This document shows, one piece after another, positions 19,499 to 23,044 of a stretch of DNA of 28,165 nt. Position numbers and translations under genes: made by a program. The notes beneath the pieces are model-generated. The model saw only the letters and a program-made list of their open reading frames with translations. It was not told where the DNA came from and ran no database searches. Within the stretch, counting starts at the first letter, position 1, and every line of letters begins with the position of its first letter. The DNA lies in the IMG/VR virus record IMGVR_UViG_3300044610_000130, positions 1 through 28,165 of that record. One strand, written 5' to 3'. Source of the DNA: a virus.

Positions 19499-20830
19499 TT
19501 AGCTCTCTTCAGGCGTATCACCCTCTCCGCTTCCTGTTTGGTTAGTATTTTCATAAATTTCGCTCATTTGATACTTGTATCGGTTGCCGTCGGTGATAGG
19601 CTTTTGCCCTATCATTTCCAACATCTGATTGAATGTAATTGCATTCAGATTGAACTGCATTTCAGCGGCTTCGGTGATGGCTTTTATTCCTTTGCCCTTC
19701 TCCTCATTGCTTTCTTGCATTACTTCTAAATGGTCATAGGTTTTTTTAATCAGCACCTTCGAAGTATCCACTTTAAGCAATTCCATCAACTGCATACAAT
19801 ACGATTCAGCCATAGGTATAACCGTATCTTGATACAATGATTTCCACGCTGTGTTCTGATTGTTGAAAGTACTTCCTTCAAGTTGCAACAAGTCTTTCGG
19901 GTAGCCTAACCCCGTTGCAATGTCAAACGTGGCACGTTTATAGGTTTCATTTAGCCCTAATTCAGTTGCATTGAATGACATTGACTGCCATTGAAGGGCT
20001 GCGTCTGTGATGATGATTTGACTTTGATCCGGTTGGAATCCGTATGCATTTTTGAAGTCACGTTGTATTTCATCCCTTGCCTCAGTACTCATTGGCTCCC
20101 TATCAAGTTCACCCGCTGCGGTGTTTGCCAATATACCTCTCGGACCTCTATGCGTCATCATTTCGTTTTCCGCATTGTAGTACGAAATCAGAATTGATAT
20201 TGGCTTGCTTAGTGGGCCCAATGGTGATTCAGGTAAATAAAAGTTATCGGTCGGTAATGTATTGGCCGTAAAGAAATACACCTTATCAGGATTGATAACG
20301 GTATCAAATTGCCCGTATTTAAACGTGAACCTATCAATCCAATCGCTGTTCTTCCTTACGTTATACGGATTCTTTCGGTCATCAATGACAATATCGCAAA
20401 ACTGAGGAGGAAGTACCCACATCTCAGTCGGTGGAAATCCAATAGGCCCCTTGAAGATAACAGGGCAATACCCATAAGCGCGGGTATAACCTACGACTTG
20501 TGCTTCGAATTGCGCCTGTGTTTGTAGCGTGTTTGGTTTCTTGATGATGCCTTCGATGTCGGTATAGGCACCGCGCACAGCTTTACCCGATTGCGGATTA
20601 ACCACTTCGGTAATGCCATTGCCAAACGCTTCGACTTCTTTATTGATGATTGTGGATACAACAGGGCATTCCTTCAATGCTTTTAGCACTCCATCCGGTG
20701 TGCCTGATTTCTCCCATTTGATAGCACCGTTTAACCAAAAGAATTCATAAGGCTTTGATATATCAATGACCCTATTTTGCTGCTTTACAGCATCTTTCTT
20801 TTTGAACAGATTTGAAAAAAAATTAGCCAA
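19499..20830 (-). CDS. Portal protein, start codon TTG inside a hairpin
   Basis: This 443-aa protein is a phage portal (HK97/SPP1-type): N-terminal SKPYEFFWLNGAIKWEK, a central YNAENEMMTHRGPRGILAN segment, then the clip/wing region QPDQSQIIITDAALQWQSM, ATFDIATGLGYPKDLLQLEGSTFNNQNTAWKSLYQ and the crown/C-terminal EEKGKGIKAITEAAEMQFNLN. The portal forms the dodecameric DNA gate at one capsid vertex. The first residue is encoded by TTG (20830-20828), with no in-frame ATG nearby. That TTG is paired in the 3' arm of a hairpin at 20826-20857, followed by a U8 tract inside codons 3-6, so translation may be controlled. The Com-like gene ends 52 bases upstream of this start. Confidence 0.92.
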   Translation of the reverse strand: MANFFSNLFKKKDAVKQQNRVIDISKPYEFFWLNGAIKWEKSGTPDGVLKALKECPVVSTIINKEVEAFGNGITEVVNPQSGKAVRGAYTDIEGIIKKPNTLQTQAQFEAQVVGYTRAYGYCPVIFKGPIGFPPTEMWVLPPQFCDIVIDDRKNPYNVRKNSDWIDRFTFKYGQFDTVINPDKVYFFTANTLPTDNFYLPESPLGPLSKPISILISYYNAENEMMTHRGPRGILANTAAGELDREPMSTEARDEIQRDFKNAYGFQPDQSQIIITDAALQWQSMSFNATELGLNETYKRATFDIATGLGYPKDLLQLEGSTFNNQNTAWKSLYQDTVIPMAESYCMQLMELLKVDTSKVLIKKTYDHLEVMQESNEEKGKGIKAITEAAEMQFNLNAITFNQMLEMIGQKPITDGNRYKYQMSEIYENTNQTGSGEGDTPEES

Positions 20831-20857
20831 TATCCACTTGTTTAAATGGTTATTGGC
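20826..20857 (-). promoter_or_regulatory. Hairpin covering the portal start codon (candidate translational switch/attenuator)
   Basis: In minus-strand RNA the arms GCCAAUA and UAUUGGC pair perfectly (7 bp). An A-A mismatch and 3 more pairs (CCA/UGG) extend the stem over a 10-base loop. The 3' arm contains the portal UUG start. Immediately after it come UAA and eight U residues, so the element also has the shape of an intrinsic terminator. It lies 25 bases after the Com-like gene's stop. In phage Mu, Com opens a start-codon hairpin of mom; here the same arrangement faces the portal. Structure seen directly, regulation inferred. Confidence 0.6.
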
Positions 20858-20882
20858 TTCTAAATACTGAGCCTTGTTTTTA

Positions 20883-21059
20883 TCAATATGTTTTGTTTGT
20901 GTACCCCTTGCAGGACTTACACCTTATACTGATTTTAGTGCCTTTAGCAAATTTACCCTTCATAAGCAATTTATCACAGACTTTGCCTTTTAGTTTGCCT
21001 TCTGTGATAGTTTGCTTACATCGGATTTCATCCAATACAGCATTTCCGCTATTAGTCAC
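20883..21059 (-). CDS. Com-like zinc-ribbon RNA-binding protein (candidate)
   Basis: Reading from GTG at 21059 gives 58 residues (MTNSGNAVLDEIRCKQ start); a TTG at 21035 gives a 50-residue form starting MDEIRCKQ, closer to Mu Com. It contains four cysteines: C14, then C28 in KGKVCDKLLMKGK, and C47/C50 in ISIRCKSCKGYTN. The pattern IRC...CxKLLxKG...IxIRCxxCK matches Mu Com (IRCxxCNKLLFK...IEIRCPRCK), except that 13 residues separate the first cysteine pair instead of 2. Com is a zinc-binding translational activator. The gene follows the 83-aa ORF in the same frame, 9 bases after its stop. It sits directly before the portal gene and its hairpin. Too short for a 60-residue cut-off. Confidence 0.75.
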   Translation of the reverse strand: MTNSGNAVLDEIRCKQTITEGKLKGKVCDKLLMKGKFAKGTKISIRCKSCKGYTNKTY

Positions 21060-21068
21060 GCTGTAAAA

Positions 21069-21320
21069 TTAAACAATGTTTTTTGAATTATGCAAATTTT
21101 TTATAAATGTTATTTTCATAAAGTGTCCGTTGTCCGAATATTTGATTTGGTAAATGCCCGAATAAGTTGTAAGCGCCCAATGTTTAACCTTTTCATTGCA
21201 CACCAATAAGACATCACATTCATTGCCAATGCCTGACTGCTCAAACTCATGCAACTTTGCCCATACCTTATCACGGGCATATTGCTCATAAAACAAAGAC
21301 CTGGCAGTACCTATTTGCAT
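21069..21320 (-). CDS. Unknown small protein
   Basis: From the ATG at 21320 this gives 83 residues (MQIGTARSLFYEQYARDKVW). A TTG at 21365 would add 15 residues but lies far inside the lipoprotein gene. The sequence has an N-terminal helix, then a beta-rich half (ECDVLLVCNEKVKHWALTTY, GIYQIKYSDNGHF). It overlaps the end of the lipoprotein gene by 10 bases and is followed in the same frame by the Com-like ORF. No motif suggests a function. It may be a moron, since such genes often lie between terminase and portal. Confidence 0.6.
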   Translation of the reverse strand: MQIGTARSLFYEQYARDKVWAKLHEFEQSGIGNECDVLLVCNEKVKHWALTTYSGIYQIKYSDNGHFMKITFIKNLHNSKNIV

Positions 21321-21538
21321 TCTGGGTAAATCATTATACGGTTCAAATTGGTATCTATCTTCCAAAATATAGGAGTTAGATTGTATTGTGCTAATTCAGA
21401 TGCATTGAACCGCTTTTGTTCGGTGATAACCTGTCCATCCTTAACATTCTTACAGGTGTACTTATCGCCTCTTGTGCATGATAGCAGCCCGATTGCCATT
21501 ATTGTTATCAAGTATTTCATAATGCAAATATACATCAT
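21311..21538 (-). CDS. Small lipoprotein after the large terminase
   Basis: The ATG at 21538 overlaps the terminase stop (ATGA). A second ATG at 21520 gives the better signal peptide, MKYLITIMAIGLLSCTRGDK, with lipobox LLSC and C15 as lipidation site. The mature part is about 55 residues with two further cysteines (YTCKNVK and PECK). A minimal lipoprotein in the packaging operon suggests an envelope role (exclusion of other phages, or a spanin-like part), not a virion role. Its function is unknown. With the 158-aa lipoprotein downstream it makes two in this late region. Confidence 0.75.
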   Translation of the reverse strand: MMYICIMKYLITIMAIGLLSCTRGDKYTCKNVKDGQVITEQKRFNASELAQYNLTPIFWKIDTNLNRIMIYPECK

Positions 21539-22701
21539 TTTCTATTTCTGTATGAAAATATCGCATATCTAAGCGCATCCATAGCATGATTAAATGCGTC
21601 CATTGGTTTGTTTGTCGGTTGTCCATCCACTTCGATAAACCTGTATTTCTTTTCCTCCTCAGCTATGTTCTTCGATGACCTTGTGTAAGCTATGCGCTTT
21701 TGTTTAACGTGTAGAATACCCGGCATGATCTCTTTCTTTTCGGCCATCACCGCTGATACCTTTAAACGCCTGAGTTGTAGCACATATTCTTTGTCGTGGT
21801 CGCAGTACATGACCTGCCCAGACTTGTAGCCGTTCTCTGTTGCGTGTTCCTGAATAGCTGCCGGGCTTAGTCCCGTAATGTAGGCGCATTCATGTACGAT
21901 ATAATCCCACTCCATGCCCGGCTTCATTACATAGACCTTAACAAGTGCCGTCGGGTCATTGGTGTATCCGAAGTCACAACCCCAAATGACATTGGACACG
22001 TCCTCCGTCTTAACCGAATCCACTACCCCGAAATGATAAACCGCACCCGACAAACGGCCCGTTAAGCCTCTGGCATAAACCTTCCATAGTTCAGGGTCTT
22101 GTATGCGCTCGATTGAATCCCTAATATCCTGAGGTAAGTATGAATTATGAACGTGCCATGACCTAAGCACCTTAACTGATGGGTATTCGGTTTTGTTCTC
22201 GATAATGCGTTCATGTACCCAAAACCGAAATGAAGGGTTGTAGTCTAAGTAGGTCCTTACATAGGTCCTCATGTTGGCTTCAAAAAAAAGCATGTAATCC
22301 ACCCTTGTAGCTTCATTTAAGTACAAGATATGCCTCTTACCTCCTTTGGCTTGTTCAGCGTTCTCAAATGATTTAAACTCTATGATTGTTCCGTTCTTGA
22401 ATGTATAGACGCGGTCCGATTTGTTGAAGTCCTTGACGCTTCGTTTAACCAATGGATTATTCGCCACAAGTTCGGCCATGATACGCATTGTGTCTTCTTT
22501 TAATTTCGGGACCGTATTACTAACCACCGTTATAACGTAGTTAGGTGCTGCCATTGCAATCGTCACAAGGACTTGCATAATGCAATAAGACTTACCTGAA
22601 GATGTACCGCCTTGATTAATTACTATTCGCTCTGGGGCAAATAGATTTGCGTAATAAAGCGGATCGGGTTGTTTAACAAATGGGCTATGTAGTTGCTCCA
22701 T
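21535..22701 (-). CDS. terL: Terminase large subunit (ATPase and nuclease)
   Basis: From the ATG at 22701 this gives 388 residues (the longer frame to 22722 uses a TTG). ATPase motifs are Walker A GGTSSGKS (31-38) and Walker B-type ILYLNEA (125-131). The nuclease domain holds the RNase H-like acidic residues D243 in WGCDFGYTND, D301 in YCDHDKEY and D375 in NHAMDALRYA. It matches the Terminase_3/6 family of large subunits, the motor that packages DNA and cuts concatemers. It overlaps the small subunit by 17 bases. The sequence is complete at both ends. Combined with the portal and capsid downstream it fixes the packaging module. Confidence 0.95.
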   Translation of the reverse strand: MEQLHSPFVKQPDPLYYANLFAPERIVINQGGTSSGKSYCIMQVLVTIAMAAPNYVITVVSNTVPKLKEDTMRIMAELVANNPLVKRSVKDFNKSDRVYTFKNGTIIEFKSFENAEQAKGGKRHILYLNEATRVDYMLFFEANMRTYVRTYLDYNPSFRFWVHERIIENKTEYPSVKVLRSWHVHNSYLPQDIRDSIERIQDPELWKVYARGLTGRLSGAVYHFGVVDSVKTEDVSNVIWGCDFGYTNDPTALVKVYVMKPGMEWDYIVHECAYITGLSPAAIQEHATENGYKSGQVMYCDHDKEYVLQLRRLKVSAVMAEKKEIMPGILHVKQKRIAYTRSSKNIAEEEKKYRFIEVDGQPTNKPMDAFNHAMDALRYAIFSYRNRK

Positions 22702-23044
22702 CCGTATTATTTGGGAACTCAAGTTTTAATCCAACGGGAGCAATGATGTTAAGTTGTGCAACGTCTTTGCCTTCGCTGTCGGTGTTGGCAACGGGCGTCA
22801 CCACCTTACCATAAGCGCGGTCTAAAAGCAATTCGGCTGCTTTAATATCACCATCCAATGCCCGTTTCTTAACCGCTTCCAATATCTGCTCAGCGGTTTG
22901 TATCCCGTTCTTATCTTCGGTGGACATTATTTTTTTCATCAATTCTTTTAATGCTGGGATTTCTTTAGGCCGTCCGTTCGGGTTTCCTGATTGGCCTTTT
23001 TTGAACGGCGTCCCTTTACCGACTACGTTTTGTGGGTTTGGCAT
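22685..23044 (-). CDS. terS: Terminase small subunit (DUF5681-like)
   Basis: This 119-aa protein begins MPNPQNVVGKGTPFKKGQSG and contains PNGRPKEIPALKELMKK. The FKKGQSGNPxGRPK segment defines the DUF5681 family, which in many phages lies just before the large terminase. The next helices (AEQILEAVKKRALDGDIKAAELLLDRAYGK) fit the oligomerising DNA-binding part. The ATG at 23044 is preceded by two direct repeats and a Bacteroidetes-type promoter (23086-23115). It overlaps terL by 17 bases. Confidence 0.82.
   Translation of the reverse strand: MPNPQNVVGKGTPFKKGQSGNPNGRPKEIPALKELMKKIMSTEDKNGIQTAEQILEAVKKRALDGDIKAAELLLDRAYGKVVTPVANTDSEGKDVAQLNIIAPVGLKLEFPNNTDGATT

Follow-up and report, generated by a model that had tools for sequence, protein, structure and literature searches.

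Organization of the late gene block

The window, by which we mean the whole stretch of DNA that was analysed, is a 28,165-base virus record whose late genes lie on the minus strand, in the order DUF5681 gene, terminase large subunit, two small ORFs, com-like ORF, portal, a further ORF and HK97-type capsid (Table 1). Those relatives of the portal that come from named records are mostly Bacteroidota phages or prophages. Just upstream of the first late gene, a strong hairpin is followed by a promoter-like site, TATCTTTG (23157-23086, minus strand). Between the terminase gene and com, a small ORF (21311-21538, minus strand) is lipoprotein-like (MKYLITIMAIGLLSC...), and a TATATTTG site stands at 21525-21532, just before its likely start.

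Table 1. Features of the window around the com-like gene and the portal start
Feature	Coordinates	Strand	Evidence
First late gene, a DUF5681 protein occupying the place of the terminase small subunit	22685..23044	-	E 1.8e-16 and position
Terminase large subunit, upstream of portal within the late block	21535..22722	-	Profile matches
com-like gene, 58-aa zinc ribbon, GTG start	20883..21059	-	Profile homology, cysteine pattern
Possible competing mini-hairpin, GGCU(11-nt loop)AGCC	20855..20873	-	Weak for the window (shuffle p 0.034), better supported among relatives
RNA hairpin of 8+6 bp and one A.A mismatch, dG -15.5 kcal/mol	20825..20858	-	Folding, sister contigs, covariation in distant relatives
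U8 tract, codons 3-6 of portal, two nucleotides past the stem	20815..20822	-	Read from the sequence
Portal gene, TTG start, 443 aa, presumed regulated gene	19499..20830	-	Pfam Phage_portal E 1e-21; phrog_12 from residue 1

The initial annotation had described a short Com-like ORF with four cysteines before the portal gene, a hairpin whose 3' arm contains the portal TTG, and eight U residues after that hairpin. All of these are present, with the TTG at 20830-20828. The hairpin, AGCCAAUA-A-CCAUUU-AAAC-AAGUGG-A-UAUUGGCU (20858-20825), likewise lies near the end of the ORF, but its dimensions had to be corrected, since it begins 24 nt after the com stop rather than 25 and comprises 8+6 bp rather than 7+3. 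Because an in-frame TAA is found a few codons upstream in most sister contigs, TTG is the only ATG, GTG or TTG at which the portal could start, and a portal ORF beginning further upstream was ruled out. A promoter between the hairpin and the portal gene was also discarded, there being no TAnnTTTG and no room for one.

The predicted fold withstood randomization: the 121-nt leader region folds better than 200/200 dinucleotide shuffles (z -3.57). The pairs are kept in the window and 15 sister contigs, where two sites vary, one in the loop and one changing a U-A pair to U-G. The 58-nt stretch that runs from the com stop to the end of the hairpin is almost entirely non-coding, yet with three variable sites it ties for the lowest variability along 1.66 kb. 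The U8 tract reads UUUUUUCU in two sister contigs (L013, L014). Measured against the terminator pattern, the window's U8 comes after AA and its stem is A/U-rich, and a consensus terminator scan did not list it; Rfam gave no match in the window.

The window ORF reads as a divergent Com homologue

The four cysteines of the window protein, Cys14, Cys28, Cys47 and Cys50 (C-x13-C ... C-x2-C), are the putative zinc ligands of two knuckles and are invariant in an alignment of 30 sequences. The 13-residue spacing of its first knuckle is 11 residues longer than C-x2-C; the Com of L142 has an intermediate C-x3-C spacing, and that of L141 carries a long first-knuckle insertion similar to the window's. 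An alternative in-frame TTG at 21035 would yield a protein beginning MDEIRC, nearer to the start position of the relatives.

The proposed membership in the Com family was borne out by a profile of relatives and not by the Pfam model. The window protein falls below the PF10122 cut-off and gives no hit to that model; L075, L083, L101 and Mu Com pass the cut-off, and 10/30 aligned family members hit the model. It is not recognised by NCBIfam, and it matches PHROG gpCom (phrog_13819) at E 0.005. A direct search of phage records returned no match for the Com proteins of the window and L168, and a weak one for that of L085. A non-circular profile was built from the relatives, with both the window clade and Mu left out. 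This profile finds Mu Com at E 2.1e-10 and the window ORF at E 1.6e-6, the next best ORF of the window scoring 0.1. A fairly confident AlphaFold2 model of the 58-aa protein contains four strands (mean pLDDT 83); a Foldseek search of this model against the PDB gave no useful match, which says little at 58 residues. Judged by its sequence, with weak direct and strong indirect support, the window ORF is a divergent Com homologue, and a putative zinc- and RNA-binding role can be assigned to its product as for the Com family.

A covarying hairpin accompanies com in distant phages

Distant loci were found through portal alignments, their portals being about 30% identical to the window's. Many of these loci carry com ORFs upstream of the portal gene, usually adjacent to it, and small four-cysteine proteins are encoded at the position of the window com. 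Altogether, a com gene and a folding RNA element before portal are found in the window phage and in about 30 related or distant Bacteroidota phages.

We compared 24 non-redundant com-adjacent loci with 70 other ORFs of the same loci as a control. A hairpin of dG <= -12 is present at the portal start in 22/24 com-adjacent loci versus 16% of control ORFs (Fisher 2.5e-11), and one of dG <= -20 in 79% versus 0%. Two com-adjacent loci, L070 and L101, nevertheless have no hairpin.

The arms of the hairpin covary in the relatives that carry com, with double compensatory changes in 7/7 core pairs. The proportion of stem cells that are paired is 94.8%, compared to 76.9% after shuffling and 26-56% when the stem partner is slid, a slide of one base being sufficient to destroy pairing; 0/500 shuffles reach the observed value, although, the loci being related, shuffle p-values overstate independence and should be taken as strong rather than literal. 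RNAalifold, run on the same alignment, reports double changes in 10/12 pairs. G-U pairs are used in the stem, and UUCG or GNRA loops close it in L067, L148, L159 and L168, which together point to recognition as RNA rather than DNA. A search with the exact pattern of the element returned 9 matches among 2.9 million viral contigs, and 5/5 of those examined have the arrangement com-element-portal.

The claim that the hairpin hides the start codon stands for the clade of the window, the only one in which the start codon lies within the stem. Elsewhere, the portal ATG is found about 10-20 nt 3' of the stem, and the reading that the hairpin always conceals the start was dropped.

The U tract points to probable attenuation

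The initial annotation had also considered the U tract as a sign of an alternative role in attenuation, and this feature proved to be a conserved part of the element: a U tract (at least 5 U in 8) is present in 20/24 Com-linked relatives. Positions -14 to -1 are 59% U and 17% A, while the corresponding figures ahead of the other genes in these loci are 25% U and 45% A. The conserved U tract and the U-rich leader argue for intrinsic termination, that is attenuation, and the hairpin probably acts as an attenuator, either in addition to blocking translation or in place of it. Against attenuation as the sole level of control stand the tight spacing to the start codon, the window start codon lying in the stem, and five loci (L159, L168, L169, L171 and L179) that retain the hairpin although their U tract is poor. 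Attenuation and blocking of the start site therefore likely operate together, in proportions that would differ between clades.

A Com-type motif and a possible competing helix at the base of about half of the hairpins

In SELEX, a Mu-like Com selected 5'-CC(N)2-3GAG-3' in a hairpin loop, with GA accessible, and in Mu the Com site adjoins and partly overlaps the inhibitory hairpin that holds the mom GUG (PMC6483171). CC(N)2-3GAG stands at the base of the hairpin in 12/24 Com-linked elements (2.2 expected), and 14/24 can form a competing 4-bp hairpin that uses the 5' arm of the large stem as its own 3' arm (2.4 expected), both by criteria that were set after seeing examples. Each of the two features occurs in 0/13 other terminator-like hairpins, a control set from which L087, L088 and L116 were left out. 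Broader tests of the competing helix and the motif are weaker (14/18 versus 5.5 expected, with a covariation score reached by 3/500 shuffles). In L087, L088 and L116, CC(N)2-3GAG is found at the foot of a terminator-like pre-portal hairpin, with no adjacent Com detected.

The canonical CC(N)2-3GAG is absent from the window copy, in which the AGCC at 20858-20855 would serve both as 3' arm of the possible mini-hairpin and as 5' arm of the main one. The Mu-like circuit that had been suggested for this locus is thus reflected in the com gene beside a covarying hairpin at the portal start and in the Mu Com motif of half the relatives, but not in a motif of the window itself. Folding predictions indicate that the mini-hairpin forms first in the nascent RNA, and that the main stem is favoured over the mini-hairpin state by 6-14 kcal/mol. 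A protein would therefore be needed to hold the mini-hairpin, and Com would have to act co-transcriptionally or as a chaperone.

The element usually follows com when the next gene changes

Some loci separate the two possible partners of the hairpin. Five loci (L064, L075, L158, L177 and L182) have a small ORF separating com from portal, and in each of them the hairpin directly follows com and precedes this ORF; L080 and L161 have a strong hairpin after com too. In four of these loci (L075, L158, L177 and L182), the ORF between the element and portal is membrane-like and about 78 aa long.

As a partial hold-out, Com was sought in the whole genomes of two bacterial families. The three best short-ORF matches (L205, L206 and L207) have a hairpin directly after com, the Com of L205 being the same as that of L172; two weaker short-ORF matches (L230 and L231) have no hairpin directly after com. 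On the reverse strand of L207, com and the hairpin are followed not by portal but by a gene of the Acb2/Tad1-hairpin (anti-CBASS) type (Pfam E 6.5e-14), which implies that the target is not always portal. The element thus usually follows com rather than portal as such. The exception is L141, in which the hairpin is at portal and com about 500 nt upstream.

A proposed RNA switch and its alternatives

We hypothesize that com, the spacer and the hairpin form a cis-acting RNA switch that is run by an RNA-binding protein and placed before the head genes, a reading that we consider probable, if well short of secure. The sequence evidence that supports it comprises Com homology, synteny, the covarying hairpin and the U tract, together with, in the relatives, the Com-type motif and the competing helix. 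By default, the transcript of terS, terL and com would fold the large hairpin, which would stop RNA polymerase at the U tract and/or bar ribosomes from initiating at the gene that follows; in the window, the portal start codon would itself be paired. Com, once accumulated, would bind the small hairpin that is first to form as the RNA emerges, with a C-G pair closing its C(N)2-3GA loop. Since the two hairpins share a sequence, as 3' arm of the small and 5' arm of the large one, the large hairpin could not form, and portal and the downstream head genes would be expressed. Binding by Com, the level of control (attenuation, translation or both) and the working of the window's divergent copy are what we infer from these features, and activation as the sign of control is borrowed by analogy from Mu. 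Because the layout repeats the Com/mom switch of Mu, these phages probably use it to time head-protein production.

A simpler explanation would have the hairpin act as a constitutive, leaky terminator that ends the terminase-com transcript and fixes the ratio of head-gene expression, with Com doing something else. The locking of the U tract to the stem in 20/24 loci, the unusually U-rich leader and the terminators that Com-less phages also carry before portal all favour this explanation. It gives no reason to expect a Com-type motif and a competing helix at the base of the stem, both absent from the 13 other hairpins, nor an element that stays with com when the next gene changes, nor the five loci that keep the hairpin despite a poor U tract, and we regard it as unlikely. 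The position of the hairpin between two functional blocks would also suit an RNA processing or stability element that parts the terminase mRNA from the head mRNA, and strong stems can block exonucleases; with Com unrelated, however, the motif, the competing helix and the tight spacing to the next start codon are left unexplained, which makes this account very improbable.

Com could conversely bind the leader as a repressor or autoregulator, stabilising the hairpin and limiting head-gene expression. While com would precede its presumed site on a shared transcript, an order known from autoregulated operons, the motif belongs to the helix with which the large hairpin is incompatible, and Com of Mu is an activator (PMC6483171), so that we give repression little credence. 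An inverted repeat directly before a gene might even be a DNA operator for a dimeric regulator. This we find scarcely credible given the G-U pairs of the stem, the UUCG and GNRA loops, the strand-specific U tract, and a sequence that varies while its pairing stays.

Relation to known systems

The proposed switch resembles Mu com-mom in several respects. In both, a small four-cysteine Com is encoded just upstream; in the window, a putative inhibitory hairpin lies at the start of the gene after com, and its stem, like that of Mu, contains a non-ATG start codon (PMC6483171); in relatives of the window, although not in the window itself, which lacks the canonical motif, a small CC(N)2-3GAG hairpin adjoins the inhibitory one. 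The differences concern the target, a DNA-modification gene in Mu and here portal, a small pre-portal gene or, once, an Acb2-like gene, as well as the conserved U tract after the hairpin, the Com site sharing an arm with the inhibitory hairpin, and the Bacteroidota hosts. Furthermore, com ends before the element here, whereas in Mu it overlaps the target gene.

Protein-dependent antitermination attenuators such as ANTAR (EutV; PMC3369931) are alike in that an RNA-binding protein holds a small hairpin that excludes the terminator stem. They differ in the family of the protein, which here is a Com-type zinc ribbon encoded immediately upstream, with antitermination being putative. The Com of KS5 also adjoins its presumed target; there, it is a translational regulator beside an N-4/N-6 DNA methylase, a DNA-modification neighbour, and here the neighbours are virion genes (PMC3091744).

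The literature that we found treats Com in connection with mom and, going by annotation, as the neighbour of a DNA-methylase gene, and our search of the open-access PMC literature returned no description of Com controlling a portal gene. The control of late genes in Bacteroidota phages is poorly understood. The link between Com and a covarying RNA element, found ahead of virion genes in many phages, suggests a general device for late-gene timing. Com-type zinc ribbons could then constitute a widespread class of phage RNA switches that time Bacteroidota head genes by catching a mini-hairpin in the nascent RNA, so that no attenuating or start-blocking hairpin forms, with Mu com-mom as one specialised use; we offer this tentatively and, if only slightly, would sooner doubt than assert it. 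Dozens of natural Com-RNA pairs are now available for working out how Com recognizes RNA, the structure of a Com-RNA complex not having been solved at the time of PMC6483171, and the element is short enough for reporter work.

Structured leaders in related phages

Com-less phages can also carry terminator-like hairpins before portal. A search for Com in the whole records of 50 mostly Com-less relatives gave a single weak match, interrupted by a stop. The Polaribacter phages Freya and Danklef (L030 3592-3809, L031 1130-1344) carry both a terminator (CGCTTC..GAAGCG-T7) and a promoter-like TATATTTG site upstream of portal; lacking Com, this leader was not counted as the same element. In Leeuwenhoekiella phage Arctus_1 (L048 2756-2953), a small cysteine-rich protein that Pfam does not recognise is encoded between terminase and portal.

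A further group of Com-less portal relatives (L044, L046, L047, L091-L093, L096 and L098-L104), several of them from human gut records, has a structured leader of its own. Rfam gave no match in six related Com-less loci, L044, L046 and L047 included. In these three, a small hairpin around a GTGTGAAGYTRCAC-like sequence lies about 50 nt upstream and is followed by a terminator-like hairpin directly before the portal start.
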